Origin: an uncultured Pirellulaceae bacterium | Lineage (GTDB): Bacteria; Planctomycetota; Planctomycetia; Pirellulales; Pirellulaceae | Direction: 5' to 3' | Assembly (NCBI GenBank): GCA_937967505.1 | Contig: CALCJM010000003.1 | Span: forward strand, 1 to 64,000 | Length of the DNA stretch: 64,000 nt | Shown: in pieces, positions 263-17,516 of the stretch | How positions within the stretch are numbered: position 1 is the stretch's first letter | How the letters are laid out: every line of letters begins with the position of its first letter | Position numbers and translations under genes: made by a program | The notes under the pieces: model-generated | Told to the model about the DNA's origin: nothing | The model's input: only the letters and a program-made list of their open reading frames with translations | Database searches by the model: none

Positions 263-408
263 GCTCCGAGAAATCAAACAAAACCTGGAAAATAAACCAC
301 CCGTCAACAATCGTACAATCGTGATAGGGAATGTTTACTGGCTGCGTCTGAAGGATCTTCTTGATGATCTCGATTGCTAAGTGCCGGGAGAAGCCAATTC
401 TCAGGCTG

Positions 409-2079
409 CTACTTTTGTTCGACCTCGTCTCTAACCGAGAGTTCCAGAATGCGGAGGCGATTTTGCTTAATCGGCTGTCCTTCAAAAAAGACAGGCGCTC
501 TCTTGCGATCCGGGCTGTGGAATCCCGTTGCCACGAAGTGCGCGTCTCTGGTTTGATCTGGCTCAAGCGACACGTGGTCGATTAGTCTCACATTGCCAGT
601 GTTCCACTTGAACATGGCTTGGTTTGGATCACCCATTCGCAAGATCTTCCCGTTGCGGTCGCAGATATGAAGAAAGCGGTTTTCACGCCGCCCCTCCCGC
701 AGCTCCCAGACCATTTTCAGGATCCAGGAACCGTCTGGGTTGTGCGACCTTTCCAGCCCCAACAAAATCGCATCCTGGTCGAACCTGACATCTTTAAATT
801 CTTGGGGAGAGGCTGCGATAATTGCGTTTTGGGCTGCTGTGTCAAAATAGTTCATTCTCCCCATATTGATCGAACTGACGCCGGCGCAACCAAGCAATGC
901 AGCGAGACTGGTCAGGCCAAGCCATCGGAGCGCGGAGGTTGATCGGGTTTTGGTCGTTTCGGTTGGCCGTTTCGTTCTCCCTTTCAGTTTCAACAACATC
1001 GACCGACAGGGGAGTTCGACCCAATGGTGCAGCAGCATCGCAGCGGCCAGCGCGGACAACAAACAGCCCGCAATCATCCAAAGCCACGAGAGACTCAATT
1101 CATTCTGCTGATACTTTGAAACCCAGGTCAGGATTGGCAGATGAATCAGGTAAAATGCATAACTGATCTCCCCCAGATACTCCAACGGACGCCAGGAAAG
1201 AACGCGCGTCAAGCCTCCCCTAGATGATGCAAAAATATAAATCAGGGCAGCGAAGAGTGGGGCTGGCCCGTCGATCCGGATCCATTTCGCCAGCGCGCTG
1301 CCGGAGTCGGTGAACATGCCAAATCCCAAATAACACATCCAATAATACCCTGCACAGAGTGCCACAGCGGTGCATTGCGCGAGAGTGCCAAAGGTCAATC
1401 GCGAGGCGGCGGGACGGGATTGCGATCTGACGAATAGTGCGCCGGCCAACATGCCGGTCAGGAAATCGTACAGTCGAAAGATGGGGTTCGCCCGAATCAG
1501 GAAGGTTTGACTCTCCTGCGAAAATCCCGGCAGGTCCTGAAAAGTCAGCACGGCAATCGCGGTTGCGGTCAGGAGACAAATGGCGATTAGCTTACGTGTG
1601 ATCGATTTCACCCCCCCGGCCAGCAGTAGCGGGAACATCAGGTAAAAGAACGCTTCTACCGACAGGCTCCAGGACGGGCCGTTGATACAGAACACCCAGC
1701 GGTCAATCGGCACCCATGATTGAAGTAGGACGGTGTTGAGAACCAACTGCCACCCACCGTAGGGGCGCGCAATCTGTATCGACAATGAATAAATAAAGGT
1801 CAGGAAAATTGCAGCGGTTGCCAGATGCAGTGGCCAGACGCGCGCGACTCGTTTGATGTAGAACGCGCGTGTCGAAAACTCCCGGCCGATGTAGACGTAG
1901 GTCAGAATGAACCCCGACAGCACAAAAAAGAACCCCACACCGGCAAAGCCGAGTGTGTGAGGGTTGAATGTGGCTTCGTCGAACGCTCCGGGAAGGTGAC
2001 TGACAAAGACCAAAAGTGCCGCACAAAAGCGCAGGCCCGTAAGTGATTTGATGCTGTTGCGTGTGCTGGAATCACTCAT
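409..2079 (-). CDS. Membrane-bound O-acyltransferase, acyltransferase-3 family, with extra C-terminal domain
   Basis: The protein is 556 aa when started at the ATG at 2079, giving MSDSSTRNSIKSLTGLRF; that N-terminus matches the family, and a 31-residue upstream extension seems unlikely. The first ~380 residues contain about ten hydrophobic segments and the family hallmark FFFVLSGFILTY near residue 50. Members of this family move acyl groups onto sugars or lipids of the envelope. After the membrane part, residues ~400-556 form a hydrophilic extension that starts after one more hydrophobic stretch and probably sits outside the cytoplasm. I do not recognise this extension. The gene stands alone, divergent from the sulfatase gene with 188 bp between them. 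Family assignment is firm; the acceptor is unknown. Confidence 0.88.
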   Translation of the reverse strand: MSDSSTRNSIKSLTGLRFCAALLVFVSHLPGAFDEATFNPHTLGFAGVGFFFVLSGFILTYVYIGREFSTRAFYIKRVARVWPLHLATAAIFLTFIYSLSIQIARPYGGWQLVLNTVLLQSWVPIDRWVFCINGPSWSLSVEAFFYLMFPLLLAGGVKSITRKLIAICLLTATAIAVLTFQDLPGFSQESQTFLIRANPIFRLYDFLTGMLAGALFVRSQSRPAASRLTFGTLAQCTAVALCAGYYWMCYLGFGMFTDSGSALAKWIRIDGPAPLFAALIYIFASSRGGLTRVLSWRPLEYLGEISYAFYLIHLPILTWVSKYQQNELSLSWLWMIAGCLLSALAAAMLLHHWVELPCRSMLLKLKGRTKRPTETTKTRSTSALRWLGLTSLAALLGCAGVSSINMGRMNYFDTAAQNAIIAASPQEFKDVRFDQDAILLGLERSHNPDGSWILKMVWELREGRRENRFLHICDRNGKILRMGDPNQAMFKWNTGNVRLIDHVSLEPDQTRDAHFVATGFHSPDRKRAPVFFEGQPIKQNRLRILELSVRDEVEQK

Positions 2080-2267
2080 GAGGTGCCTTCGGATAGATCG
2101 TGGTAAGCCCGGCATTTGCTGGTGAAAAATGACAGACCATGGAACGCAGTTTGGATATTCCCAGTCTTGCAACCGGGTAGCAAGTCCAAATTATTCTTGA
2201 TAAAACTGGGCTTTTTCCCGTGTAAATCGCCGCTTGTTGGCTGGCACATTTCTGTTTTGGAGTATCA

Positions 2268-5200
2268 ATGAGGCGACGACTGTGGGGGATCTTGTGGCCA
2301 ATATGGCTTGCCTGTTTAATCGGCATCTTGCACAGCATTCCGGGTCGCATGGCCCATGGTGGCCAACCGCCCAACATTGTGTTGATCGTAGCGGACGATC
2401 TGGGGTACGGCGAGTTAGGCTGCTACGGGCAAACGCAAATACAGACGCCTCACATTGACCGAATGGCAGCTGAGGGGATGCGTTTCACGGATTTTTATGC
2501 GGGATGTACGGTCTGCGCTCCGTCCAGGTCAGTCATGATGACCGGTCAGCATATGGGGCACACGTGGGTGCGTGGCAATGCGCGGGATGACCTTCGTCAT
2601 CAGTCGCTCAGGGACGAGGATGTCACCATCGCCGAAGTCCTGAAATCCGGCGGATACAGAACAGGGATCTGTGGCAAATGGGGGCTTGGAGAGTTTATGG
2701 GGACCGACCGTTCCTGTCCGGGCATCCCCAACCGTCAGGGGTTTGATTTTTTCTTTGGCTATTTAAGCCAACACCATGCGCACAATTACTACCCTGAGTT
2801 TTTGTGGCGCAACCTCGATCAGGTGCCGCTTAAAAACCGGGTCATTGCCTCCCGGTATCAGCATCCTCAATGGCCGTTTCGGGCGGGGCACTCCGGCAAT
2901 CGGGCTGAGTATAGTCACGACCTGATTATGCAGGAGGCGACAAAATTCATCCGCCGGAACAATCGGGGACCGTTTCTGCTCTATCTGCCGGTCACGATTC
3001 CGCATGCCAACAATGAAGGAACCAGGGCAACGGGAAACGGTCTGGAAATCCCCAGCCTGGGAATTTACAAGGACAAAGACTGGTCTCCTCAGAACAAGAG
3101 CCAGGCGGCCATGATCACTTATCTGGACCGGGGGGTTGGTGAGATTCTCGCGCTGTTGAAATCTCTCAAGATCGACGACAACACCATCGTCATCTTTACC
3201 AGTGACAACGGCCACCACAACGAGGGTGCACATTGCCCCGAATTTTTTGACGCCAATGGTCCGTTACGAGGTGCCAAGCGTGATCTGTACGAAGGTGGAA
3301 TTCGTGTGCCGATGATTGTACGGTGGCCCGGGAAGGTTGCGGCAGGCGTAACGACCGACCATGTCAGTTACAGCGGCGACTTGATGGCGACTCTGGGGGA
3401 AATCGCCGAACAAAAACTCCCTGCCAAGATTGATTCTGTCAGTTTCGCCCCGACGCTGTCAGGTCAGGAGCAACTTCAGCAGCATGAGTACTTATACTGG
3501 GAATTCTACGAACAGGGCAGTGCTCAGGCGGCCAGGATTGGCGATTGGAAGGCTGTCCGCCGGCCGATGCTCAGTGGGCCGGTCGAGGTTTACGATTTGA
3601 AAAACGATGTTGGTGAAACCACTGATCTGGCGGCCCAACAGCCGGATCTGGTCGCACGATTTGAACGGTTGTTCTCGGAGGCGCATCGGCCTCACCCGAA
3701 CTGGTCGCCCGTGGGGACCCGACAAGAATCATCCGCAGATCGAAAATACGACAGACGCGCACTTACATTTACCAAAATAGAGGCGCGTGAATTTCTGATG
3801 GGGGCGAATCCCGGTCCCGACGTGTTTAAAAAGGGACGCGCTGATCGCTATGAAGGGCCTGACTGGGACGAGGGGCCTGTACACCGGGTGAAATTGACCC
3901 GTTCATTCTCCTTTGGCAACCGACAAATTTCAGCGGCCGAGTTTCTTTTGTTTCTGCCAAGCTATAAGGAAAGGGTCCGGTCGCGCGGAGAGATTTGGCA
4001 CCCGGACGGTCCCGCAGTGCTGGTGTCCTGGAACGAGGCGCGGGCTTACTGCCGCTGGAGAAGTCAAAAGGACAATGCTCATTATCGTCTGCCCACGGAG
4101 GCTGAGTGGGAATTGGCGGCCAGAAACCGCACCGCGTTTCAGATCGAAGATGTGGCCGACGGCGTTCAGGAATGGTGCGCCGATTGGTGGGCACCCTATC
4201 CGTCAGACTATGAAAACCGGGTCGCGGTCGATCCCGGCGGGCCCGAGACCGGAATGGTTCGAATCGTGCGTGATGGTGGGGGTGGCAGCCTCGAAGACCG
4301 GCGGAAGAACACCGGAGATGCGCACCTCAACCGGCAGCGTACCAGAGCACCAATCGATTTTCGCGTCACCGATCGCTCCGGGACCGTCGCGGATGACCGC
4401 AGGAGGAATCTCGGATTCCGCATGGTCAGCGTTGATAATCCCGCAGTTGTCGAACAGGTTGCCGGGAAACCAAGCACCGACACTGACGGTAGCTTGAAGC
4501 ACATGGCGCTACAGGGAGAGCCGTTTCAAAATGTGCAGTTGCAGGCCCTTCAGTGGGAGCAGCCTAAGGATTCTGACGCGCCCGTATTTTGGGGTGGTGT
4601 GGAATTTATGGCTCAACCATCCGCTGCCGCCACATTGCCGTACTGGGGGCGCCATCATGTTCCAAGCCTGACTTACTGCGACAATGGCGACCTGTTGTTG
4701 ACATCATTTACGGCGGCGTTTGACAACAACGACCAGATGGCAATTCTGCTGACGCGCCTGAGACGTGGTAAGAAAAAATGGGATGCGCCGGCGCTCTTTT
4801 TTGTGGCCCCCGACCGCAATGTGACCTCGGCGACCCTGTACAACGACTCGCGCGGCAACCTGCATCACTACAATGGATTGGGCAGCAATCTATGCGAAGA
4901 TTTTTCGATGGTGAAACGCGCCAGCAGCGACAACGGTGCAACGTGGAGTGCACCGAGAATGGTGCATGACTACCCGACGCGCCCTGCAACGAAGCAGGAC
5001 CCTGCGGGTGAACCGCGATTGTGGCCGCATATGGATCTTAAACGCACGCCGCAGGGGGCGCTGCTGATGTCCACCGATGTGGGCGGTGGAGATGATCCGG
5101 GGTCGGCGCTGTTTATCAGTCGTGACAACGGGGAAAGTTGGGAACAGCGCTCGCGTTACCCGTGGCAGCGCGAGAATTTTGCCATCGCAGGAAAAACGGC

Positions 5201-5717
5201 GGGCTGGATTGCCGGAATTCACGCGCCGGTGGTGACATTGAACAACGGAGATTTACTGGCATTTGGGAGATCCAACAATATCCGGGGAAAAGCTCCGATG
5301 AGCCGTTCGTTGGACGGCGGGAAGACCTGGCACTTTGAGGCAAGTCCGTTTGCTCCGATTCATTCCTCGCAGCGTCCGGTTTTGATGCGGTTGAATGAGG
5401 GGCCGTTGCTGTTGATCAGCTACACCGATTCAAGCGCCCGGGCGGCTGAAAAATCAATCCAGGGAATGGAATTTCGGACCATGTCGGGAGGGACCAGAAA
5501 CGGAGTGGGATTGTTTGCTGCGGTGTCACTGGATGGGGGAAAAACCTGGCGATACAAAAAATTGATCCCCAACTGGTGGAAGAATTCGCCATGGAAGTCG
5601 CGGTTGTACGGTTATTTGTCCTGTGTCCAAACGCCTGATCGCAGAATCCATCTGGTCAGTAGCAGTCACTATTACTGTTTCAATCTCGCCTGGCTACAGG
5701 AGCCGATGGCCGACTGA
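2268..5717 (+). CDS. Secreted triple-domain protein: sulfatase, FGE/SUMF-like domain, BNR sialidase-like domain
   Basis: This 1149-aa protein begins with a hydrophobic signal-like segment (residues ~5-22). The sulfatase domain (~33-500) has the metal-binding DD at 43-44 and the signature C83-A-P-S-R87, whose cysteine is the residue converted to formylglycine in this family. Residues ~507-720 match the formylglycine-generating-enzyme (SUMF1) fold: EFLMG, RLPTEAEWELAAR, VQEWCADWW and NLGFRMVS are all present. The segment that normally carries the catalytic cysteine pair (here GGGGSLEDRRKN and onward) has no cysteine, and the domain is shortened between the AAR and QEW motifs. I therefore infer a non-catalytic, perhaps ligand-binding role. 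Residues ~760-1149 carry four Asp-box motifs (for example SLDGGKTW), as in BNR sialidases. Together the domains suggest degradation of sulfated or sialylated glycans outside the cytoplasm. Confidence 0.9.
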   Translation: MRRRLWGILWPIWLACLIGILHSIPGRMAHGGQPPNIVLIVADDLGYGELGCYGQTQIQTPHIDRMAAEGMRFTDFYAGCTVCAPSRSVMMTGQHMGHTWVRGNARDDLRHQSLRDEDVTIAEVLKSGGYRTGICGKWGLGEFMGTDRSCPGIPNRQGFDFFFGYLSQHHAHNYYPEFLWRNLDQVPLKNRVIASRYQHPQWPFRAGHSGNRAEYSHDLIMQEATKFIRRNNRGPFLLYLPVTIPHANNEGTRATGNGLEIPSLGIYKDKDWSPQNKSQAAMITYLDRGVGEILALLKSLKIDDNTIVIFTSDNGHHNEGAHCPEFFDANGPLRGAKRDLYEGGIRVPMIVRWPGKVAAGVTTDHVSYSGDLMATLGEIAEQKLPAKIDSVSFAPTLSGQEQLQQHEYLYWEFYEQGSAQAARIGDWKAVRRPMLSGPVEVYDLKNDVGETTDLAAQQPDLVARFERLFSEAHRPHPNWSPVGTRQESSADRKYDRRALTFTKIEAREFLMGANPGPDVFKKGRADRYEGPDWDEGPVHRVKLTRSFSFGNRQISAAEFLLFLPSYKERVRSRGEIWHPDGPAVLVSWNEARAYCRWRSQKDNAHYRLPTEAEWELAARNRTAFQIEDVADGVQEWCADWWAPYPSDYENRVAVDPGGPETGMVRIVRDGGGGSLEDRRKNTGDAHLNRQRTRAPIDFRVTDRSGTVADDRRRNLGFRMVSVDNPAVVEQVAGKPSTDTDGSLKHMALQGEPFQNVQLQALQWEQPKDSDAPVFWGGVEFMAQPSAAATLPYWGRHHVPSLTYCDNGDLLLTSFTAAFDNNDQMAILLTRLRRGKKKWDAPALFFVAPDRNVTSATLYNDSRGNLHHYNGLGSNLCEDFSMVKRASSDNGATWSAPRMVHDYPTRPATKQDPAGEPRLWPHMDLKRTPQGALLMSTDVGGGDDPGSALFISRDNGESWEQRSRYPWQRENFAIAGKTAGWIAGIHAPVVTLNNGDLLAFGRSNNIRGKAPMSRSLDGGKTWHFEASPFAPIHSSQRPVLMRLNEGPLLLISYTDSSARAAEKSIQGMEFRTMSGGTRNGVGLFAAVSLDGGKTWRYKKLIPNWWKNSPWKSRLYGYLSCVQTPDRRIHLVSSSHYYCFNLAWLQEPMAD

Positions 5718-5829
5718 GTAGGCAAAGCGATGCGCGCGTTCGTCTTCAGGTTTCTCAGATAACCTGATCGCCGACTGTTGCAGCGTTTCAGCCGCAAAAT
5801 CCCTATAACACCTCGGCACCCCGGGTATT

Positions 5830-6810
5830 TCATTGGGTGCGCTGGGCGACAATGTTGTGATAGCCAGCCAGCGCTTTCTGGCGGGCGTTGGGCCCGATTG
5901 ACTGATAGTGTGCGATGGTCTGACTCAGTCCATCATCAATCGCGGTGACGGGAATTCCTCCAAGAACTTCCGCCGCATTCTTTCTTGTGCCGTGCTTTGG
6001 TGAAGTTGTACTGCACTGTGGCAGGAAGGCTTGGGGCTGTTCAGCAACTTGCATGGGATAACTCGGGTACCTGCTGATCCGGGCGTTGCAAAGCTGTTTG
6101 ATGCGTCGATTCAGTTCCGATACGGCCACTTCCGTCGTAACGCCGGTGGAATAAACATCACCGCTGGCATCATCATTAAAGGTATGTGCGACAATGATTT
6201 TGGCCAGGTCATCGACGAAGGTCAATTCAACGGTTGGTTCTGTCTGTGTCGGGTCGGTCTGTTCCCCGGCATGCGGTTCTAACCCCTCAAGCGTTTCCAG
6301 AATGTGAAGTGCAACGCGCGTTTTCTCGGGTTGAAGTTGTTGTCCCGGACCGTAAGTATTAAGACAGAATAGTCTTCTGAGTTCGACGAAGCCAAGTGAT
6401 TCGAACAAACTACAGAAGGCTTCACCGGCCTGTTTTGTGATGGAATAGGACTTACTGGCTGCTGTTGGTTTTACGGGGTAGAACAAACGCTTGACCCGGG
6501 CGATTTTGGCGGCCTCCAACACGTTTACGGTTCCCTTGATGTTGACATCGACTGAATTCAGATTGTCGAAAACAGTGGAGGGTTCCCCAAAAACGCTGGC
6601 CAGATGAAAGACCACATCCACCTGCTGCATGGCGGTCGCCAGCGCGTCAAAATTGAGAATGTTCCCCTGAACATGGTCGGGATTGGCATCCGGGCGTTTG
6701 TCAAATGATACGACCTGCATCCCGAGTGACCTGAGATGCCGCCTGACCGCGCCGCCGATAAACCCGGATCCACCGGTAATCAATGCTTTTTGGAAGGGCC
6801 TGCGAAACAT
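5830..6810 (-). CDS. NAD-dependent epimerase/dehydratase, extended SDR family
   Basis: The 326-aa protein starts with the Rossmann nucleotide-binding motif GGSGFIGG (residues 13-20) and has the catalytic Y122-S-I-T-K126 pair, as in UDP-glucose 4-epimerase and related nucleotide-sugar enzymes. The usual SSxxVYG stretch before the tyrosine is altered (FYPVKPTAASKSY). That leaves the substrate open: it could be a nucleotide sugar, a sterol-like compound or another extended-SDR substrate. The gene is convergent with the sulfatase gene (112 bp apart) and near an envelope acyltransferase, so nucleotide-sugar metabolism is a reasonable but unproven guess. Confidence 0.85.
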   Translation of the reverse strand: MFRRPFQKALITGGSGFIGGAVRRHLRSLGMQVVSFDKRPDANPDHVQGNILNFDALATAMQQVDVVFHLASVFGEPSTVFDNLNSVDVNIKGTVNVLEAAKIARVKRLFYPVKPTAASKSYSITKQAGEAFCSLFESLGFVELRRLFCLNTYGPGQQLQPEKTRVALHILETLEGLEPHAGEQTDPTQTEPTVELTFVDDLAKIIVAHTFNDDASGDVYSTGVTTEVAVSELNRRIKQLCNARISRYPSYPMQVAEQPQAFLPQCSTTSPKHGTRKNAAEVLGGIPVTAIDDGLSQTIAHYQSIGPNARQKALAGYHNIVAQRTQ

Positions 6811-7283
6811 GTGGACCAGCCAGAAATGGGGTGGAGGTAGCGTCTTCTGTCAAAATCGGATGGAAAAAGGTAGGCCGCCAGCCGCTTGCCTTCGTCAAAA
6901 CGAAGCGACTGGCGACCCAACCAACCAGAAAAGGTGGGTAGGTCCGAAAAGCGCTGGTTCGCGCTTTGTCTGTGTTTGGTCACTAAAACCGGCCAAAGGG
7001 AGGCCGTAACTGTCAAATCTTGGTGGACTGTCGGACTAAAGTTCTCAATTCAGGGCAAGTTACGCTCCCGAATGGTGGTTTTGTGTTAGAATTCAGGGTG
7101 CTTCATGGGGGGATATCCCTCGTTTTTTAGCGCTCCGCCTCCAACTTCCCGGCCGTTCAAAAATTCCTTCCTGCTTTCGATCTTGTTACTGAATATTAGC
7201 GAAACAGGAAATTGTTTGTGCGCACCAAAAGCGCAAAATGGGCTGCTGGAATAATTTTTAATTATTCGTTTGTGTGATTTCTT
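6811..7283. other. Intergenic region with no gene recognised
   Basis: No convincing reading frame was found in these 473 bp. The stretch separates two divergently transcribed genes, so it should hold both promoters. Near its right end lies GTGCGCAC (7218-7225) and a perfect 7-bp inverted repeat (listed separately). The rest shows short GC-rich inverted repeats of no clear class. Confidence 0.6.
7249..7267. promoter_or_regulatory. Perfect inverted repeat, candidate XRE operator
   Basis: GAATAAT and ATTATTC are perfect inverted arms around the spacer TTTTA. The site ends 16 bases before the GTG start of the XRE-family regulator gene, a position typical of autoregulatory operators. That it binds this regulator is inference only. 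Confidence 0.4.
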
Positions 7284-8348
7284 GTGCCATTTGGTAATAA
7301 AGCCATCCGACGCCGCCGAAAAGACTTGGGTTTATCCCAACTGGAGCTTTCTTTGCGCGCCGATGTCGGGATTCGCACCATCCAATTTGCTGAAGGTGGC
7401 AAAAGAGAGGTGACGCGCGGAACTCTGGAAGCCATTGCATTCGCATTAAACCTTGATTACGAGGATGTGATTGAGGGTGGCAATCGAGATGCGTTTCTCG
7501 AGGCTCCGTGGGGACTGTTCAAATTTGTTCAGCGCCGCTTGCGTCTTTCCGATCTTGCATTTTGTCGTCAGGAAGATGATGCGTTGGTTGCGATCGGGCA
7601 AATGCGCGATAGTTGGCGTACTCACCTCCATGCTCCGTCGTCCGAAGACGAAAGAGAAATCTTTCTCAAGGCTGACAGGATATTGAACGAACATTACGAT
7701 TCCTACGAGCAGAGATATTTGTCAATTTGGAAACAGAATCCCGGGACGTTTGTGTTTTCGGTTTCCCAAAGGGAACGGACGGGGATGAGTGTTATTCTTC
7801 CTGTGACCGATTCGGCCTATGAGAGGTTGCGTACCGGGGAAATTTCCTTCATGGACATCTCTGCCAGCGATATTCTTGGGACAAGCCAAAACCTTGTCGT
7901 GGATTCAGCGGTTGAGTTCTCCAACTGTACGGCTCTGCCATGGTATCGAATTACCGAATCATTGAGTTTTGCGGTGTTTTCCCAAATGACAATGTTAGCG
8001 AGCAATCCGGGGGCAAGAGACTTTCGCATGCTTTCGTTCGGTGCAAGTCCTGCCAATATTGAAAGGCTGAAGTCCACCGGTTTTGTATTCAATGGTAGAA
8101 CAATGCCGGTTTTTGAATTCCCCGTTTGCGAATTTACCGGTAACAACAATGATTTGACCGAAGACACCTACGAACGGACATCGACAGTCTCCCACATTTT
8201 GCACTTGCTGAACCGTCGCATCGATTCGAATTCGAGTGTTGAATCCAAACGCCGGATGGTGATTCGCTATCTCAAATTAAGCTCGGTCTCCCTGCCACTC
8301 AATCATCCCGGCGAAGGCACGGTTCCTTTCAAGAAATGGCATGCCTGA
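7284..8348 (+). CDS. XRE-family transcriptional regulator with a large unrecognised C-terminal domain
   Basis: The 354-aa protein starts at GTG. Residues ~6-65 are a lambda-repressor-type helix-turn-helix (IRRRRKDLGLSQLELSLRAD, then GIRTIQFAEGG, then TLEAIAFALNL). Residues ~120-330 do not match a domain I know. They contain DFRMLSFGASPANIERLKSTG followed by a hydrophobic strand, which loosely recalls the acceptor half of a GNAT fold, so a ligand- or acyl-CoA-sensing role is possible. There is no clear Shine-Dalgarno sequence before the GTG. The gene converges on the three-gene minus-strand group and overlaps the last of those genes by 46 bp. It is a plausible local regulator of that group. 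Confidence 0.8.
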   Translation: MPFGNKAIRRRRKDLGLSQLELSLRADVGIRTIQFAEGGKREVTRGTLEAIAFALNLDYEDVIEGGNRDAFLEAPWGLFKFVQRRLRLSDLAFCRQEDDALVAIGQMRDSWRTHLHAPSSEDEREIFLKADRILNEHYDSYEQRYLSIWKQNPGTFVFSVSQRERTGMSVILPVTDSAYERLRTGEISFMDISASDILGTSQNLVVDSAVEFSNCTALPWYRITESLSFAVFSQMTMLASNPGARDFRMLSFGASPANIERLKSTGFVFNGRTMPVFEFPVCEFTGNNNDLTEDTYERTSTVSHILHLLNRRIDSNSSVESKRRMVIRYLKLSSVSLPLNHPGEGTVPFKKWHA

Positions 8349-9262
8349 TTATTCTCTGACTGCTTACCGTTGGAGCAGCGATCCCAACGTGGTTTCGTGG
8401 AGAACGATCCGCCAAACCTGTGCCAGTACAGGTGATAGGGTAGCTCATTGTCCTGGATGTCGTCGTTCGTCGCCTCGACACGATCTCTAAGCTGGAAAAT
8501 GCGGTGTTGATCGACGGTTTGGAAGTAACCGGTGCGGCGTTCCCATTGATGCGGCGACCACGATTCGATTTCACTGACCGATTTTTCTGATGTCCTCCCG
8601 CTTTCGATGGCCCATGAGTTGCCGATTAAGTGCGCCATATCACCCGTGTTGAGGCGTTTGCCGCCGCGCTGTAACACCAGATAATTATCGCTTCCATCAA
8701 GTTCGACCGTAACTTCTCTGGCAATCTGTCGGTATTTTGGCAGTCCGGAAGCAAATCGTTGGGTAGCGGCAAAAATTGTGTGGCCGACCTCGGCGACGCC
8801 ATAGCTGTGCAGGAACTTGATTGAGCATCTCTGTTCTGCCAGTTTCCAAGCGATGAATTCTTCCAGTGAGCGCGGCAGATAGTAGCCACCGGACGCCCAT
8901 AGTATTTGCTTGGGCAGAGGATTCCCGCTGGCCAGCAGCCTCATCAGCAGGTCCGCTCCGGCCAACGGTTGGGCGACCATCACGACAGGCCTCAGTTCGA
9001 TCGCGGCCAGGTGTGCCGCCCGAATAAAGGTGGGCGGGTGAAGGTACGTGTCGACGACCGGAGCCATCCCCTGAAGCCCTAGGGCTGCCGGGTAGGCGCT
9101 GATGATCAACGATCCCGGATTGAGAAAACGGCTCAATTCCGGAAACACCCGCACCAGTTGCACCATGCGCTGGCCTGAAGAACTGTCGATTACGCGGTAG
9201 CCGTAGGGATCCAGCGAGGTCGATCCTGCTGCGAACGAAAGTTGTCGATTGGAACCAATCAT
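8303..9262 (-). CDS. Truncated ANL-superfamily (adenylate-forming enzyme)-like protein
   Basis: With the ATG at 9262 the product is 319 aa. Reading forward, it shows weak forms of the ANL motifs in the right order: AAGSTSLDP near residues 9-17 (A3-like), GG-Y-LP near 125 (A4-like), YGVAE at 154-158 (A5), NTGD at 205-208 (A7) and GRTSEKS from about 222 (A8). Authentic ANL enzymes activate carboxylic acids as acyl-AMP. This copy lacks the usual ~150 N-terminal residues before A3, and its last ~80 residues do not look like the small ANL lid. Its ATG overlaps the stop of the upstream methyltransferase gene by 4 bp (ATGA), implying coupled translation. It may be a minimal or inactive adenylase. 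The ANL assignment rests on motifs alone. Confidence 0.65.
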   Translation of the reverse strand: MIGSNRQLSFAAGSTSLDPYGYRVIDSSSGQRMVQLVRVFPELSRFLNPGSLIISAYPAALGLQGMAPVVDTYLHPPTFIRAAHLAAIELRPVVMVAQPLAGADLLMRLLASGNPLPKQILWASGGYYLPRSLEEFIAWKLAEQRCSIKFLHSYGVAEVGHTIFAATQRFASGLPKYRQIAREVTVELDGSDNYLVLQRGGKRLNTGDMAHLIGNSWAIESGRTSEKSVSEIESWSPHQWERRTGYFQTVDQHRIFQLRDRVEATNDDIQDNELPYHLYWHRFGGSFSTKPRWDRCSNGKQSENNQACHFLKGTVPSPG

Positions 9263-10029
9263 GCTTGCCCTCCGTCGGGGCACCTTCCATCGGGGCATCC
9301 TCCATCGGGACGCAACGTGCCATAAATGATTTCAAAGGGAGGTTCCACGTCAAAATCGCTCAAACGCTGCTCCCGCACCATTGTGCCTTTGACATCCCAC
9401 GACCGGACATCAAAATGTTCATTCAGCAGCCGCATCAGAAAGATTGGTTGCCAGACGGTCGTTGGAATCCACTCATCCCCGTAGGCAAACACACCACGCG
9501 TGAACTCCATTTTCTCTTCGTACCAGGCCTGCTTCCAACCGAAACTTTCCCGGCCAATTTCCTGGGTGCGGCCCGATGTGAATGCCTCGCCGGGCACCAC
9601 CAGCGCAATCGTGCCCTCCGGTTTTAGCAACGATTTGATCTTCGCAATGACTCTTTCCAGTTCAATCTCACTGTGGACATGATTGAGATACCAAGCGGCT
9701 GTCACCACGTCGAACTGCTGATCTCCCGGGTCATAATTTTCGAATGTTGCACATTCGAATTCGAATTTTTTCCCCAGCATTTGTTCATTGGCGATGCGAA
9801 TCAGGTCTTCTGAGCTATCGACACCAACAACGGTGTTGGTGTATCTGGACAGGAGACGTGTCGATTCACCATGGCCGCAGGCGATATCGAGCCCGCGCTG
9901 GCAGTCCGCAGGCAAGGCAGATTCAAGCGCCGATCCAAGACACTGGTGCACCGTGTCATAGTACTCACCGACCCGGTCATTGAGAGTCTTGTACTGGTCG
10001 TAACGTTCCCACTTGTAGACGGTATTCAT
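9259..10029 (-). CDS. Class I SAM-dependent methyltransferase
   Basis: The 256-aa protein carries motif I LDIACGHGE (residues ~47-55) and the post-I acidic strand VVGVDSSEDLI, followed by a FDVVTAAWYLNHV motif-IV-like segment. These define a Rossmann methyltransferase of the Methyltransf_11/25 type. The substrate is unknown. The C-terminus ends in a degenerate short repeat (PDGGCPDGRCPDGG), produced by tandem 12-15 bp DNA repeats near 9262-9305. The stop codon overlaps the start of the ANL-like gene, and the upstream GNAT-like gene is 94 bp away on the same strand. The three probably form one transcription unit. Confidence 0.88.
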   Translation of the reverse strand: MNTVYKWERYDQYKTLNDRVGEYYDTVHQCLGSALESALPADCQRGLDIACGHGESTRLLSRYTNTVVGVDSSEDLIRIANEQMLGKKFEFECATFENYDPGDQQFDVVTAAWYLNHVHSEIELERVIAKIKSLLKPEGTIALVVPGEAFTSGRTQEIGRESFGWKQAWYEEKMEFTRGVFAYGDEWIPTTVWQPIFLMRLLNEHFDVRSWDVKGTMVREQRLSDFDVEPPFEIIYGTLRPDGGCPDGRCPDGGQA

Positions 10030-10123
10030 TCTGGCGTCCTTTTGTTTCTGTTGTGATGGTTATTGAAAAATAGAGCGTCTGAGTTGGAGTTAAGTGAATT
10101 TTGCGATTGTGTTTTAAACGCGA

Positions 10124-10783
10124 CTAAATTGGACAACGCTGGAACTGTGGACCGGCCGCGTATTCCAGCTCAAGAGCGCGTTGCACATCGGCCGCGCGAA
10201 GCGGCGATTCTGCTGCTTCGAAAATATCCCGACAGAAGGAACGTAAACACGGGTCAGCGGGCAGGTACATGACGACACTATCGGTGCCCAGCGTTGGATG
10301 GATGAAATCAGCCCCTTTGATTTGCAGATACCCAATTCGACGGTAAAACGGAACCAGCCTCCGATGAACATTGATGACATCAAGATGGACGCCGGAGGCC
10401 ACTTGGTCTCGCCAACCTTCGCGGAACATAAGCCTTAGTGCAAACATTCCGGTGGTGCGGTTGGGCAGAATCCGCAGTTTGCATCCTGAAAGGATTTGGT
10501 CGCCAAATCGCTGGAATATCTGATCCGGATAGTGCTGCCGGCAGTCAACTTCTCCATCGCGATTGCGTGTGACCGTCAGCGTTCCGATCGCCTCGGCCCC
10601 GTCAAACAACACGTAGTGGTTACTGTAGTGATCAAACGAAAAGATCTCGGCCCGCTGGTTTCCCGCCTCTCTGACGGACAACACCGATTCAAACAAAGTA
10701 TTGTCGGTACCGAAGTCAGAAAGAATCGCAAGGTTTTGTTCTTCGTTCGCATAAAGTTGCCGCTGGCTGGAAACTCTAATCAT
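10124..10783 (-). CDS. N-acyl amino acid synthase / GNAT-type N-acyltransferase-like protein
   Basis: The ATG at 10783 is preceded by AAGGAG nine bases upstream, which decides the start and gives 219 aa; a longer upstream frame lacks such a signal. The middle resembles the GNAT-like N-acyltransferases that make N-acyl amino acids (FeeM type): VLFDGAEAIGTLTVTRN is the strand-turn-strand with a conserved Gly-Thr, followed by LRLMFREG and LDVINVHRRLVPFYRRIGY, the helix and strand before the last sheet. FeeM-like enzymes load the acyl chain from acyl carrier protein and are relatives of the LuxI fold. The downstream methyltransferase and ANL-like genes fit a small acylated product. The superfamily call is fairly firm; the specific reaction is inference. 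Confidence 0.7.
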   Translation of the reverse strand: MIRVSSQRQLYANEEQNLAILSDFGTDNTLFESVLSVREAGNQRAEIFSFDHYSNHYVLFDGAEAIGTLTVTRNRDGEVDCRQHYPDQIFQRFGDQILSGCKLRILPNRTTGMFALRLMFREGWRDQVASGVHLDVINVHRRLVPFYRRIGYLQIKGADFIHPTLGTDSVVMYLPADPCLRSFCRDIFEAAESPLRAADVQRALELEYAAGPQFQRCPI

Positions 10784-11381
10784 GGTGGGGTACTCCTTGG
10801 CTTTCAAGCGCACTGCTGAAGCCGGACAGGGAATGGTTGGAGGTGAGTCAATCGCCGGAGGTGTTTTCAGCCTTGGCGATTGAAGCTGATACCCTTGGGA
10901 GCAAAGGACGCGTTGCGACATTTAGGTGCTAAAGAAGTGTCGCATCCATGTCGATCGGTGCGCAACAGCCACCGCAATTCGGTCTTCATGCGACGGATCA
11001 AATTTGTGAAAGGCCGGTGGTCAAATCCGGAGTGGCAGAGAATCGCCCTGTGTCGCGTCTGAAAACAATCTGGTGTTTTTTTGGTGCTGTCCCAATGCTG
11101 TCACAACCTGATAGCAGAATGCGCACACAATGCGCAAACGAGGGTTTGCCCTCTAGGGTTTCTTTCGGTCGGCGAGGTGATTGACCGTTGGAAGGTGGGA
11201 AAGCCAAGGATGTTTGGCTGTTTTGAATTGCCAATAGAGAAGTAGCCCGTCCATCAATCAACGGGATCTTGACACGAGGTCGCGCCGGTCAACCGAGAGG
11301 TTAGACAACGGCAGTTTTCTGTTGCAAGGTCACCTGATTTTAATCTGCCGGTTGAAGATCGCGACAGATGGTCGCAGTCCG
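10784..11381. other. Intergenic region, no gene recognised
   Basis: These 598 bp contain only short unconvincing frames. The right part precedes the end of the NACHT gene, and the left part should hold the promoter of the three-gene minus-strand cluster. AGGGTTTGCCCT at 11141-11152 is a GGG-N4-CCC palindrome related to, but not identical with, the GGGTTTTCCC motif seen elsewhere in the window. Confidence 0.5.
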
Positions 11382-14300
11382 TCACCGTCGTGGAAGCCCC
11401 AACTCCTTAAGCAGATTTTGACCGTCAATTGAGGCTTCCAGTTTTTGGGCCGCGTGGTTGAGACTGCGCCTCCACGCGGCAAGATTGGGAAAATCCACGC
11501 CTTGATAGAGGTCTTCAAGGTTCTCCTTGATCACAGCAGGAAAGACTTCATCATAACTGTCTATCGCGGAGTGGATTTCCTCGTAGGTCGCATCCGGGCC
11601 AATATACTCGACGACAATCTGAAACGACTTGAGGGCGCGATGTTGCATCGGTGGCAAGGAGCGTAGCATCGAATTCCGAACGGCGACAATCGAATCGTCG
11701 TTGTCCTGACAGGCGGGGCGCGTCAGATCGCCGATGCAACGTCCCTGCCCGTCATAGGCCCTGGTAGAAAATATCGTCGCTCCGCGTTGGACCGACAGAT
11801 CGCGCAGCACGTTTCTTACGCACGCTATATGAGGGGGGTACTGTAGAAGTTCGTTCAGGGAAGAGGTGGACATCACCTGAGCGACCTCTTGGGCAAAGTT
11901 GTCTATTTCTACAGTCGGAGAGCAACTGCCCGGGTATTGGCGGCGGCGCAGGAGTGTTTCCAGCAATGTTCCCATGGGGACAGAACGTCGGTAGCCAAAC
12001 CGGAGCAACTGAAACGCCAGTCGCAGGCGTCCGAGGCTGATCGTTGAGTCACAAAGGCCCCTGTTTAGCGTATAGCGAGCCAGTTGGATCAGTTTGTAGG
12101 GCCAGTTCGCATGGCGCCCGCAATCACCAACCAGAGAAAGTGCAACGCTGATCTCCCGGGCGTCGTCCTGTCGGAACTGATTGACACCCAGCAGAGCGCG
12201 ATGGATTCGCGGTTCCAGAAACGCGCGACATCTGGGCAGATCGTCAGGCGATATCGTGGTCGATTGAGTGAGGTAGATCGCAAGCAGCCGGTTTTGGTCA
12301 AATCCCGGAATTGTCATTGGCCGTCGAACGGGCGTTTCATAGCCGGCAATCGTTTTTTCAATCCAGTTGGTCGAAACAGGAATGGAATGCTTGAGCGCCA
12401 GTGTCAAAATCAATGCAACCAGTTTCAAATTGGGTTCACGCACAATAAAACGGACAACTGCCTGGCCGGCATGGTGTCCGGTGGTCTGCGTTAGCGCGTC
12501 AATCGCAGCAGCGCGTACCGCCTCACTCAGGTCGCGATCGACCGCAAATTCGGCAGCCAGCGCCAGCGCGTGGGGGGCAGGTGTCCTCACTAGGTCTTCC
12601 AGCAGCGGCAATGGGTCGTCATCAGCACAGATCGTCGCCAGCCTGACCACCGGCGACACTGGCTGGCTGGAAAACGATCCGGGACGTGATGCGACGGGGG
12701 GCGGGGGCTGGTCGTCCACAAACTTTCTGATCAGCCCCTGTACTTTGGCAGGGAGGCGTTTTTTCTCCATTGACCGCCGCCTGAGTTCGTCCGGCGCAAG
12801 TCGCTGTAGTGATTCGAGCGACAGGTTCACCAGCTTGAGGTCTGCGCCATTGGAAATTTGAATCCACAATTGGTCAACGATTGCATTCCATGCTACCGGC
12901 TGGTCTGTTCGCCAATTGGCAGACCAGGCGATTTTCGCCAGCCTTGTGGTGATTATTCCGAAACGGTCATTGTCAGCCAGCATTTCCATGGTTCGAGCCG
13001 CGCTAAAGTTCCGCGTGGATTCGCTCATACCGGCAAAAACTTCCAGTGTCAGCAGTCGGCAGCACGAACAGGCCAGTCGTTTCCACTGTTCGGTCATCAC
13101 ATCCCGAGGCTGACGGGCAAGTTCCCGGGCAGCCAGGAAAGCCTGAATCGTGGGGTGAAGAAAAACCCAATGGTTGGTCAGTCCGGAGATACGATAAATA
13201 AATCGGCTTTGTTGAATGGCATCGGGGGACGTCGCGTCCAGTTCCAGTTCGTCTTCCGGGAAGATCTGCCGCGACTCCATTTCCTTGACGGTAATTTTAT
13301 AGGCCAGTTTTTCCAGAGATCGTAATTGTGTGGTGACCGGCGGCGTTGCCCAGTCGCACTGCCGCCTGCTTTGATCTGTCAGCCAGGCGACGATTTGTTG
13401 GAAAATGTCCGCCAGGCTCAGTTGCGTCGGCCCATGCACCAGTCGCATCAACATGCCCAGTAAAAACGGGTTCGCCGCCATGGAGGCGCAATCCGTCCGG
13501 GACTCAATACGTTCGTAAATTTCGTCGGCCGCCGCGGTGCCAAGGCCAATCGAAACGGTGCGTCGTTCAATAAATTGTTTGACCAGCGCGTCGTCCAGAC
13601 CCGCCATCTCGAATATGTCGGTCGATTCCGACGCGCAGCAGGAGAACCCGGTTTTTCGCGTGGTCGTGACGGTTGTGAATGATTTTGAGTCTGCGACGAT
13701 CGCGGCATGAACGGATTCCTGAAGATGGCTGGGAACTTCGTTCCAGCCATCGAGTAACAGAAGAAACTGGCCAGAATTCTCCGCCGCATCTTTCAGGCAC
13801 CTGGCGGCATCGGCAACATTGCACTGGTTGGGCAATTGTGATTGGAGAAAAAATTCCAGTAAACCCGTTGACGGATCTTTGGCGAAGGCATCGGCAAAAC
13901 TGCTCAATTTGATGGCAATTGCAAGTTCGAATCCATGCAGTCGGTTACGGCGAGTGGCCCAGGCCAGACGTTTGATTAATGTCGTTTTGCCAGCGCCCGG
14001 TTCGCCGATCACCAGGTAGTTTTTCCGCGTGCAGGAAAACATGTCTTCGGCAATGGTGGTGGCAGGCAAATGCTCGCGCGTACGTTGAGACCAGTCGGTG
14101 TTGGCAGGAAAAGATTCCAGTTGTTGGTGAGCACCAGTCGCGAGGCGCGTTTGAATATAGACCTCTTCAAGATTCTCACGGTCATCGACGGGGGTCAGCC
14201 CTCCGACCTGCGTCCAGTAAGTGCTGTCCGCCAGAGAGGTTTGCCAGTTCAATAGCGCTTCGGCACATGTGCGTCTGGCGGCGGCACTGATTTCCGCCGA

Positions 14301-14684
14301 AGCGTCACGATTGACGGATTGCGTCCCCGGGGAAATCGCCAGCCAGCGTTCAATCTGGTCTTGATCGACCTTGGATGTGGCGGGGCCCTGTGACCGGGAT
14401 GCCCGCCATTTTCTGATTGATCTGCGAATCTGTTGCAGCGCAACCTGTTGGCCCGGGAGAAACTGCTGGTTGAGAAATCTGATCAAAGGTGCGATCAACG
14501 ATGTCTGGTTCGGGGAAAGCAGACCGTAGTGAATCGCCAATGTGAGGATGCGCGTTTGCAGTTGCGAATCTGACCAGGCTGAGTGCCGGCATTTCAAATC
14601 GCCGCGTTCGAGAGAGGCGAGCAATCGGTAAACGCGTGACAGTTGTTCGGTTGGCAGGTCGATTGGCGTATCAGAGGCAATCAT
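11382..14684 (-). CDS. NACHT-domain STAND NTPase with helical repeat C-terminus
   Basis: The 1100-aa protein has a Walker A motif GEPGAGKTTL (227-236), a Walker B LLLLDGWNE (308-316) and the sensor-like strand VTTTRKTG, then a winged-helix-like segment ending FLHPTIQAFLAAREL. This is the NACHT order, with Asn in place of the second Walker-B acidic residue. Residues 1-200 are a mostly helical region without a recognised effector. Residues ~640-1100 are rich in short helical pairs (for example AVRAAAIDALTQTTG) like HEAT repeats and could sense a ligand. Bacterial NACHT proteins of this build often act in antiphage immunity or regulation. No nuclease, TIR or protease domain was seen, and the gene stands alone. 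Confidence 0.85.
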   Translation of the reverse strand: MIASDTPIDLPTEQLSRVYRLLASLERGDLKCRHSAWSDSQLQTRILTLAIHYGLLSPNQTSLIAPLIRFLNQQFLPGQQVALQQIRRSIRKWRASRSQGPATSKVDQDQIERWLAISPGTQSVNRDASAEISAAARRTCAEALLNWQTSLADSTYWTQVGGLTPVDDRENLEEVYIQTRLATGAHQQLESFPANTDWSQRTREHLPATTIAEDMFSCTRKNYLVIGEPGAGKTTLIKRLAWATRRNRLHGFELAIAIKLSSFADAFAKDPSTGLLEFFLQSQLPNQCNVADAARCLKDAAENSGQFLLLLDGWNEVPSHLQESVHAAIVADSKSFTTVTTTRKTGFSCCASESTDIFEMAGLDDALVKQFIERRTVSIGLGTAAADEIYERIESRTDCASMAANPFLLGMLMRLVHGPTQLSLADIFQQIVAWLTDQSRRQCDWATPPVTTQLRSLEKLAYKITVKEMESRQIFPEDELELDATSPDAIQQSRFIYRISGLTNHWVFLHPTIQAFLAARELARQPRDVMTEQWKRLACSCCRLLTLEVFAGMSESTRNFSAARTMEMLADNDRFGIITTRLAKIAWSANWRTDQPVAWNAIVDQLWIQISNGADLKLVNLSLESLQRLAPDELRRRSMEKKRLPAKVQGLIRKFVDDQPPPPVASRPGSFSSQPVSPVVRLATICADDDPLPLLEDLVRTPAPHALALAAEFAVDRDLSEAVRAAAIDALTQTTGHHAGQAVVRFIVREPNLKLVALILTLALKHSIPVSTNWIEKTIAGYETPVRRPMTIPGFDQNRLLAIYLTQSTTISPDDLPRCRAFLEPRIHRALLGVNQFRQDDAREISVALSLVGDCGRHANWPYKLIQLARYTLNRGLCDSTISLGRLRLAFQLLRFGYRRSVPMGTLLETLLRRRQYPGSCSPTVEIDNFAQEVAQVMSTSSLNELLQYPPHIACVRNVLRDLSVQRGATIFSTRAYDGQGRCIGDLTRPACQDNDDSIVAVRNSMLRSLPPMQHRALKSFQIVVEYIGPDATYEEIHSAIDSYDEVFPAVIKENLEDLYQGVDFPNLAAWRRSLNHAAQKLEASIDGQNLLKELGLPRR

Positions 14685-14932
14685 GAGACAGGACAGATTC
14701 CATCCACGGGGTATTTGTGAATCAAAATCTCCTGAAGGAGTACGCTGCGGGGGAAGTGGTTTTGGTGGCGCAAAACTACAGCGAGCAATTAGTGCTGTCC
14801 ATGCACAGGAGAGAGAAAGTCAAAAATGCCAATCATGTTGTTAACAGATTTTTAACCGATTCCAAGTGGAGGCTCAAGTGCCCTCTGTTGACGCAGTTGG
14901 GGCACGGGGCATTGCGTTTCATTCTCTGAAGA
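14685..14932. other. Intergenic region, no gene recognised
   Basis: This gap upstream of the NACHT gene presumably contains its promoter. A 70-codon plus-strand frame here has no ribosome-binding site, homology or domain signal and is not called. Confidence 0.5.
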
Positions 14933-14964
14933 ACAAAAAAAACTCTCCCGGAAGCGGGAGAGTT
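14933..14964 (-). terminator. Rho-independent terminator of the response-regulator gene
   Basis: A perfect 10-bp stem (AACTCTCCCG / CGGGAGAGTT) with a 4-base loop spans 14941-14964. On the minus strand it is followed by a run of T's (complement of 14935-14940). It lies about 200 bp beyond the stop at 15163. The other side has a weaker T-rich tract, so some bidirectional activity is possible. Confidence 0.85.
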
Positions 14965-15162
14965 TCTGTTTTGTTGATTCAGCGGAAGTTTTGCTGCCGT
15001 TAGGCGGAGGGTGTTTGAGAACATACCATCACGCACCGGCAAACCAACAGAGGTAAGATGACAGGTGGGTAAGGTCAGGGCAGGTCTTTTCTGGCGAAGC
15101 TGGCAATACTTTTAAAAGTGACGTTAGTTCGCGGCGGCAAACTTAATTGGTTCATTGGCCAA

Positions 15163-15720
15163 TTAATTGGTTGGGGCTGCGGCACCCGGCCTGCCGAAAA
15201 GTTCTCGCAATTCGGTTTCCTGCCCAATAATACGGGCGGACGCTTGGGCCTTCTGTTGAATTTCGCAATCAATTTGCTGCTGTTGTTCCTGGTTGATCCG
15301 TTGGTATTTTTCCAAGGTCTCGCACACACATTGAACCAATTGGTCGTTATCCACGGGCTTCACGAGGACGGCATCGGCGCCATACCCCATGATCTTGCGG
15401 GCAACTTCAGGTCTTGCATCGGCCGTCACTGCCACGACCGGCACGGTTTTCATGCCTTTGTGTGACCGCACCAGTTTGGTCAGGAAATTACCACTGGCTT
15501 CAGGCATGTGGATGTCGGTCAGGATTAAATCCGGACGCAGTTGTTCAAAAGTATCAATTGCTTCGACGGAATCCTCGAAACCGTGAATGCGGGAAAACCC
15601 GGCCTCTTGAAGAAATGCGGTCAGCATTTCAATAACAATCTCTTCGTCGTCAATGATAAAAATGACGGAGGTATGAGGGTCGTGGGGGGCTTGGGGCGGG
15701 AGTGGGGGATTCTGGTTCAT
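15163..15720 (-). CDS. CheY-like response regulator with short glutamine-rich tail
   Basis: The 185-aa protein has one receiver domain: the acidic pair DD (24-25), phospho-acceptor D69 in LILTDIHMP, T99 in VAVTADA, and K121 in VLVKPV. After the receiver comes a ~50-residue tail with a QEQQQQ stretch that could form a coiled coil. There is no DNA-binding output domain. It is a close paralogue of the regulator at 20409-20933 (shared FIIDDEEI/HIIDDEEI, LILTDIHMPE and GADAVLVKP/GATHCLAKP). No histidine kinase is encoded nearby. An exact GGGTTTTCCC motif lies about 82 bp upstream, and a strong terminator follows downstream. Confidence 0.92.
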   Translation of the reverse strand: MNQNPPLPPQAPHDPHTSVIFIIDDEEIVIEMLTAFLQEAGFSRIHGFEDSVEAIDTFEQLRPDLILTDIHMPEASGNFLTKLVRSHKGMKTVPVVAVTADARPEVARKIMGYGADAVLVKPVDNDQLVQCVCETLEKYQRINQEQQQQIDCEIQQKAQASARIIGQETELRELFGRPGAAAPTN

Positions 15721-15800
15721 GATTTGCTCGTCGTATTAAAGTTGGACTGAACTTTTAAAACCATAGCCTCCAGTTAACCCGCTGGTGCACTACCTACAGT

Positions 15801-15812
15801 GGGGTTTTCCCT
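15801..15812. promoter_or_regulatory. GGGGTTTTCCCT motif upstream of response regulator
   Basis: This is one of four exact intergenic copies of GGGTTTTCCC in the window. It sits between the LuxR-type gene and the response-regulator gene, about 82 bp before the latter's start. The half-sites GGG and CCC are symmetric around TTTT, as in a dimer-binding operator. The protein that binds is unknown. Confidence 0.45.
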
Positions 15813-15892
15813 AGCACGGTGGCCGCGACAGGTTTGACAGGTTCTTTTCACCTTCCCTTTTCACCTTTCAGTTCTGCTATCTCACCATCCTG

Positions 15893-16594: not shown

Positions 16595-16688
16595 AGAACA
16601 CCTGTTTTTTCTTTAGATTGGTCAATTTGATGGCCGGCAGCGGATGTGCTGTCAATGTTTTTCTGGTTGGCTTTCAGATCGACTTTGT

Positions 16689-16772
16689 CTTTTCAACTTC
16701 CGTTGTGTTGAAAAGAAACAACTGGTAAGAGTTGTGGCGGGTTTTGCCTGATTGTGTTGAGGCGAAACCCGC
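16689..16772. promoter_or_regulatory. Two inverted repeats upstream of ECF sigma gene
   Basis: CTTTTCAAC at 16689-16697 and GTTGAAAAG at 16707-16715 are a perfect 9-bp inverted repeat. GCGGGTTTTGCC at 16737-16748 and GGCGAAACCCGC at 16761-16772 match at 11 of 12 positions. Both lie in the divergent control region between the LuxR-type gene and the sigma-factor gene. They could be operators or RNA hairpins in the sigma leader. Confidence 0.4.
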
Positions 16773-16846
16773 AAGTCAAATGGTAATGGAAAGTTCCGGG
16801 TGGAAACGCACAAAAATTTTTTTTCTTTTAACGAAGGGGATCAACC

Positions 16847-17452: not shown

Positions 17453-17516
17453 ATCCCGGGGCTTTTCTGTTGATTCTGTCGATTCTGTTGACGATCAGGC
17501 ATGCGGTTTTCGATGC

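Follow-up and report, generated by a model that had tools for sequence, protein, structure and literature searches.

A conserved acyltransferase-regulator cassette in Pirellulaceae with a candidate operator

Background

The closest described systems to the locus considered here are the FeeM/NasY synthases and the stieleriacine clusters of Stieleria (PMC12479983, PMC7293339). In the sections of these two papers drawn on here, the published stieleriacine clusters combine N-acyl amino acid synthase (NAS), ThiF-family, nitroreductase and methyltransferase genes (PMC12479983), the S. maiorica cluster includes an unspecified putative transcriptional regulator, and the authors can only speculate about quorum sensing by stieleriacines (PMC7293339). 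Here we describe a gene cassette in a stretch of 64,000 nucleotides (positions 1 to 64,000 of contig CALCJM010000003.1, assembly GCA_937967505.1; hereafter the window) from an uncultured bacterium of the Pirellulaceae. The cassette shares with those clusters the family PF21926, the phylum and, in some loci, a nearby methyltransferase gene, but its constant partners are a LuxE-like (ANL-like) protein and an XRE-type regulator with an unnamed C-terminal domain. We give a probability of roughly one half to the reading that this is a self-contained cassette, which would make an acylated small molecule and regulate when it is expressed, the cue most likely being the product or a precursor of it.

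The words "ligase", "HTH" and "regulator" are absent from the main text of PMC12479983, and the regulator mentioned for S. maiorica, being unspecified in the part of that paper considered, makes an overlap with the regulator family of the cassette possible (PMC7293339). As in LuxI/LuxR systems, a GNAT-like acyltransferase is paired here with a dedicated DNA-binding protein, and regulators of the same family that occur without the operon resemble LuxR solos in their distribution; the cassette differs in that its regulator is XRE-type and in the addition of the ANL-like protein and the methyltransferase, and neither LuxI nor LuxR families are among the Pfam matches listed for the synthase (FeeM, GNAT) or for the regulator (helix-turn-helix, HTH). 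The LuxE acyl-protein synthetase (PF04443) and the PaaK-like ANL enzymes distantly resemble the ANL-like protein at the profile level, with about 150 columns in register, whereas the cassette protein lies below Pfam detection, has about 320 residues and, as read from the alignment, is without the usual N-terminal part before the P-loop-like stretch. The N-acyl alanine methyl esters of Roseovarius, as presented in the part of PMC11580390 considered here, belong to a class of acylated, methylated amino acids that could be expected from a synthase plus a methyltransferase, a likeness drawn at the level of product class. We class the cassette with NAS-type clusters, outside LuxI/LuxR and the catalogued defence systems, and it may work like LuxI/LuxR. 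Among the open-access titles and opening parts of abstracts covered, a scope outside which most subscription papers fall, no such synthase-regulator system is described in planctomycetes.

Results and discussion

Layout of the locus

The window lies on contig C3 of its own genome, an incomplete assembly (5.03 Mb in 183 contigs, 88.9% complete), and contains the following four genes and two overlaps.

7284..8348, + strand: XRE regulator, GTG start, N-terminal HTH_3 and a C-terminal domain of about 270 residues without a named family
8303..9298 as the listed open reading frame (ORF), - strand: minimal LuxE/ANL-like protein, likely start 9262
9259..10029, - strand: class I S-adenosylmethionine-dependent methyltransferase (Methyltransf_25)
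10124..10783, - strand: FeeM-family N-acyl amino acid synthase-like acyltransferase (PF21926)
8303..8348, no strand: 46-bp convergent (tail-to-tail) overlap between the XRE gene and the ANL-like gene
9259..9262, - strand: ATGA stop/start overlap of the methyltransferase and ANL-like genes, from the sequence

The four ORFs (7284-10783) sit at the coordinates given by an earlier sequence-only reading of this DNA. The GTG start of the regulator is the position at which the proteins of its relatives begin to align, at the identical residue. For the ANL-like gene the start is likely 9262, since this gives the ATGA overlap of 4 bp and fits the relatives in which the upstream gene is likewise overlapped by 4 bp at the ANL start (L040, L041, L043, L044 and L051; loci and genomes are cited by our L and G numbers), and with that start the 4-bp overlap noted earlier between the methyltransferase and ANL-like genes is real. 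The present analysis adds the 46-bp convergent overlap, tandem TGCGCA sites, operon-free regulators and a conserved NACHT gene.

Conservation and coupling of the genes

The sequence-only reading had proposed to look for the same neighbourhood in relatives as a test that could refute it, and the neighbourhood is conserved across 17 loci of the family. With the ANL-like protein as query, 28 genomes of the genus yield two strong relatives besides the window, a search of 40 relatives with the acyltransferase finds the same two, and two loci obtained from a scan of genome contigs are the same metagenome-assembled genome (MAG) contigs as G394 and G400. With a three-sequence profile the ANL-like gene is found in 17 of 241 family genomes, representing four genera, and a 17-sequence profile has no match in the other 391 genomes drawn from the phylum, 8 of which are family members. 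The synthase profile matches the same 17 genomes and, more weakly, one further genome (18/241). As a side observation, G611 carries two neighbouring acyltransferase-like genes (L108 8458-9387 and 10934-11560; weak matches to the synthase profile, E 1.3e-40 and 3.9e-5) that are accompanied by neither an ANL-like gene nor a regulator.

The acyltransferase gene adjoins the ANL-like gene in all 17 loci, and the regulator gene is adjacent and convergent to the ANL-like gene in 16 of them. The methyltransferase gene is present in 10/17 loci (window, L007, L008, L040, L041, L043, L044, L045, L047, L048) and is not found in the other seven (L042, L046, L049-L053); in L008, on a MAG contig, it is joined with the ANL-like gene into one fused ORF of 589 residues. 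When the ORFs of the 17 loci are grouped, the families common to more than six loci are the four module genes and NACHT only, and those common to at least three are the same families with lineage-specific neighbours, not all neighbours being annotated.

The regulator and ANL-like genes overlap tail to tail in each of the 16 pairs, by 44-55 bp in 14 of them and by exactly 53 bp in ten, with L047 (81 bp) and L048 (299 bp) having the longest overlaps. An overlap of at least 40 bp occurs in only 2 of 48 other convergent ORF pairs from the same loci, a crude background that compares ORFs rather than annotated genes. Within the window overlap (8303-8348) both strands read G-T-V-P around a near-palindrome, unlike the relatives, which might reflect a small inserted repeat. 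Across 16 loci the protein distances show a strong correlation (r = 0.97 for regulator and ANL-like protein, 0.97 for regulator and synthase, 0.95 for ANL-like protein and synthase; each matched by 0 of 2000 permutations), indicating shared inheritance and not interaction. The ratio of nonsynonymous to synonymous substitution rates (dN/dS) is low in the pairs measured: 0.03-0.08 in three regulator pairs (a fourth being saturated), 0.10-0.22 in four pairs of the ANL-like gene (with the start of each ORF taken from the list), 0.03-0.04 in two methyltransferase pairs, 0.05-0.08 in four synthase pairs and 0.11-0.16 in two NACHT pairs, with dS saturated in the L040/L044 pair.

A tandem repeat tied to the regulator

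When the upstream regions of the regulator genes are aligned, they are dissimilar apart from GTGCGCAA....GCGCAA. We scanned for two TGCGCA hexamers at an 11-bp period, allowing at most one mismatch in total, and find TGCGCA-N5-TGCGCA upstream of the regulator in 15 of 16 loci, the far end of this candidate operator lying 52-75 bp ahead of the start codon. The 15 non-window loci (239,360 bases) contain 15 matches at this period, 14 at regulators and the remaining one 453 bp upstream in L043, and periods of 9, 10, 12 and 13 give zero matches in the same bases. The window has two sites.

7219..7235, no strand: candidate operator upstream of the XRE gene, TGCGCA-N5-TGCGCA with 1 mismatch
11120..11136, no strand: second candidate operator, TGCGCA-N5-TGCGCA without mismatch, 337 bp upstream of where the acyltransferase gene starts

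Its own genome has four sites with at most one mismatch (seven for the reversed-pattern control), of which two flank the module, and the site at 11120 is the sole perfect copy. In G550, G560 and G568 there are 8, 6 and 9 sites (controls 23, 26 and 24), one in each genome being at the regulator.

The window regulator matches Pfam HTH_3 (28.7 bits, cut-off 23), as do all 16 module regulators, and the same 16 keep R-T-x-Q in the region of the recognition helix, as assigned by our reading of the HTH alignment. Searched with a profile made from the C-terminal domain, 26 of 241 genomes have the family, namely all 17 module genomes and nine without an ANL-like gene, of which six are strong and three weak (G447, G495, G538). 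The operon-free regulators of L103, L100 and L099 keep R-T-x-Q and have the tandem repeat with 0, 1 and 2 mismatches, respectively; those of L101, L102 and L104 have lost these residues, and no repeat is found within 300 bp of them at two mismatches. This co-segregation of residues and repeat is the best comparative evidence that the regulator itself binds the TGCGCA repeat, and autoregulation is supported. In G549 (L099) the regulator gene is 30 bp from a PriA-like gene, and in the close relative L050 the ANL-like gene and the synthase gene sit between regulator and PriA; the profiles of these two proteins have no match in G549. The nine genomes with operon-free regulators, together with the case of G549, fit a receptor able to respond alone. 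More distant relatives of the C-terminal domain are seen in L105 (7177-8304), L106 (7385-8683) and L107 (7386-8513), and Pfam finds no HTH in L105 or L106, both of which belong to the weak three.

The sequence-only reading had described a convergent XRE-type regulator with a novel large C-terminal domain. HTH_3 bears out the first part, and the C-terminal domain has no PDB sequence match at E<=10 and no convincing Pfam match. The structure model of the regulator is poor (predicted local distance difference test, pLDDT, 51.4; predicted template modelling score, pTM, 0.33), and this low-confidence model gives no Foldseek match at E<=0.001, those listed matching the HTH end. The order of strands and helices had suggested by eye that the domain might be a GNAT relative of the synthase, a candidate rejected at an hhalign probability of 0.2%.

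Two further elements upstream of the regulator are set apart from the repeat. The first had been noted earlier as an inverted repeat at the start of the regulator gene.

7249..7267, no strand: AT-rich inverted repeat with 8-bp arms and a 3-bp loop, probably incidental

The inverted repeat is present, and as a regulatory element it carries no weight, because 9 of 300 dinucleotide shuffles of a 200-bp stretch had an arm as long and because no counterpart is seen in the upstream regions of relatives. The second, about 140-170 nt upstream of the regulator, is an invariant TGCCCC inside a covarying stem, found in 14 of the 16 module loci (L040-L053) and in the operon-free L099, and not in the window or L007. 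Both sides of the stem have changed in 7 of 10 pairs, and 84.7% of cells are paired, compared with 34-41% when the alignment is slid by 1-3 columns, the structure being derived from the same alignment that is used for scoring. It is a candidate structured element of RNA or DNA, on either strand, with no Rfam match in the six loci scanned; over these loci and positions 1-20000 of the window, Rfam has no match close to the module.

Predicted enzymes and the ANL-like protein

The acyltransferase of the window matches FeeM (PF21926) at 36.4 bits, above the curated cut-off of 27 (E 5.5e-9), and 13 of the 17 homologues match FeeM at E<=1, the other four being without a match. Pfam thus backs the FeeM-like assignment that had been made from the sequence, and FeeM-type chemistry is supported. 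The methyltransferase matches Methyltransf_25 at 65.8 bits (cut-off 27, E 5.8e-18).

The assignment of the ANL-like protein can be read in two ways, and under one of them it would be an unrelated binding or scaffold protein, with an operon that only acylates and methylates a substrate. This would agree with the window protein having no Pfam or NCBIfam match at E<=1, with Pfam AMP-binding touching only 2 of the 17 members (best E 0.1), with matches to PDB sequences at chance level only (HMMER, best E 0.26), and with a structure model from three sequences that is of low confidence (pLDDT 54.5, pTM 0.56) and has no Foldseek match at E<=0.001, the adenylation domain 5n9w ranking sixth at E 0.056. 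The comparison of profiles, in single runs, argues the other way, with E 7.4e-4 against LuxE and 6.6e-4 against AMP-binding (hhalign probability 26 and 27%) compared with 0.36 and 0.099 for the reversed-profile controls, and with GGYY and YGVAE paired in register (over GG and YGxxE) with the corresponding ANL stretches. The two reference profiles match each other at a probability of 97% and were built from planctomycete sequences, using the longer 7 of 21 LuxE matches (L113, L114 and 12 short or weak ones being left out) and 16 of 17 AMP-binding matches (the partial L147 being left out).

Conservation within the family also speaks against an unrelated protein. The stretches AGS.S, GGY and GVAE are kept in 17/17 homologues, which are likewise invariant at A24, G25, S26, S28, G137, G138, Y139, G167-E170, T256, G257, Q269, R271, K302, P303 and W305, and the TGD-like position is acidic in all (D in 15, E in 2). 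A single-sequence match of the ANL-like protein in another family (E 7.7e-4, 30% over 115 residues) is judged to be due to chance, because the 17-sequence profile does not recover it over 392 phylum genomes, and a search for LuxE genes in five genomes (module-bearing ones or the window's own) found none. The earlier ANL-like claim is favoured only by profile comparison and receives no backing from the low-confidence structure prediction. We regard ANL homology and ANL chemistry of this LuxE-like protein as weakly supported, and the scaffold explanation as somewhat unlikely.

An alternative that concerns the whole locus is that it is an ordinary cluster for a small lipopeptide-like or N-acyl amino acid product (resembling stieleriacines, and acting as an antimicrobial, as a surfactant or on biofilms), and that the XRE protein senses a metabolic or stress cue with no cell-to-cell signalling. 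XRE regulators of metabolite clusters are common. The synthase is indeed FeeM-family, and planctomycetes make N-acyl tyrosines that alter biofilms, according to the sections of the stieleriacine papers considered (PMC7293339, PMC12479983), but ThiF and nitroreductase are not among the recognised families common to at least three loci, not every neighbour being annotated, and the regulators exist without the operon and keep the operator. We hold this explanation to be unlikely.

A NACHT ATPase gene beside the module

A further gene lies upstream of the synthase and in line with it.

11382..14684, - strand: NACHT-domain (STAND-type) ATPase (PF05729), probable fifth member of the cassette

The window protein matches PF05729 at 36.8 bits (cut-off 26.7), and 10 of the 17 loci (window and L040-L048) have a NACHT gene next to the module, a count in which the sequences of L007 and L008 end close by and leave one side uncovered. 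The homologues in the nine other loci align over most of their length (best E 1.7e-54). In L040-L048 the NACHT and regulator genes are divergent, and the 93-647 bp between them include the operator; in the window the NACHT gene is on the other side of the module. Identity to the window copy is 18-25% for NACHT, compared with 40-49% for the regulator in the same nine loci, and the dN of NACHT exceeds that of the other cassette genes in both pairs measured.

The bacterial NACHT/STAND defence proteins have the NACHT domain in common with this protein, which differs from them in having no full-length PADLOC or NCBIfam match and a C-terminal region with no Pfam or PDB match. PADLOC gives generic or partial matches only for four module and four NACHT proteins, namely P-loop fragments for NACHT (E 6.4e-4 at best) and the part of mad2 that is a methyltransferase (E 7.8e-17), and NCBIfam EruA reaches 26 bits against a cut-off of 1000, with no defence assignment. 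Another explanation is a system for conflict or against phages that centres on NACHT: the operon would produce an acylated messenger, or else modify a lipid or a protein, and the XRE protein would hold the system off like the control proteins of defence systems. This would account for the divergent placement in 9/9 non-window cases and for NACHT being the most divergent protein, but it is improbable given that no PADLOC model beyond generic domains and no EruA score near its cut-off was obtained, that L049-L053 are without NACHT and keep the synthase, ANL-like gene and regulator, and that the cassette is inherited with the lineage and not scattered, as far as the distances show.

Proposed working of the cassette

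Under the reading of a self-contained, self-controlling cassette, the FeeM-type enzyme would, judging from its family, take a fatty acyl group, with acyl carrier protein as the probable donor, and join it to an amine, which is probably an amino acid or a related amine. Where present, the methyltransferase would cap the product. The LuxE-like protein might activate a carboxylate as acyl adenylate, either providing the synthase with acyl groups or processing the product at its carboxyl group. From the comparative evidence the XRE protein would bind the TGCGCA repeat at its own promoter and, in this genome, also the copy upstream of the synthase. Its unnamed C-terminal domain would sense the molecule, so that the pair may act like a synthase and receptor, and the NACHT ATPase, which diverges rapidly, could have an accessory part in the circuit as transducer or effector. 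We infer the product, its sensing as ligand, the role of NACHT and any signalling function; the earlier proposal that the regulator is the receptor of the product, for which there is now a candidate operator, is plausible.

Several observations weigh against this reading. In L007 the operator scan finds no site even at two mismatches, and by eye there is a repeat with period 12 and one mismatch per half. The second site near the synthase is present only in the window, none being found in the other loci at up to one mismatch, and in five loci (L040, L041, L042, L043, L048) the region upstream of the synthase has instead, at a distance of 91-167 bp, an inverted repeat of the form GGGACA-TGTC(C/T)C, so that control of the operon may differ between loci. 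The five loci L049-L053 lack the methyltransferase, and NACHT is seen neither there nor beside operon-free regulators. In G400, the genome of L008, what there is of the regulator family is a fragment with which a different contig begins, and the 193 bases past the ANL-like stop do not encode the end of the regulator, so that the two genes are unjoined on its contigs. Correlated distances are also expected under plain vertical inheritance. Among the grouped ORFs of all loci, neither an exporter gene nor one for acyl carrier protein is a conserved neighbour of the module. The C-terminal domain of the regulator matches nothing searched (Pfam, PDB sequences) and is not detectably related to the synthase. 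As a separate observation, the GGGACA-TGTC repeats continue by eye into further TGTC boxes in L041 and other loci, and are possibly the site of another regulator.

A more specific version of the preferred reading is a synthase-receptor signalling module of a new type, in which the FeeM-class acyltransferase and its LuxE-like partner would make the signal, the XRE protein with its unnamed ligand-binding domain would be the receptor on the tandem TGCGCA repeat, NACHT would read out the signal in some lineages, and receptor solos would eavesdrop in others. We put this forward tentatively, and consider it rather unlikely in its full form.

Conclusions

A synthase gene, an ANL-like gene and a convergent, overlapping regulator gene are kept together in the family, and a conserved tandem repeat is tied to the regulator. 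Three conserved families of the cassette have no Pfam name: the regulator C-terminal domain, the ANL-like protein and the C-terminal region of NACHT. The cassette may be a chemical signalling system so far undescribed in planctomycetes, and it supplies concrete, testable candidates for the synthase, the regulator and the operator of such a system.

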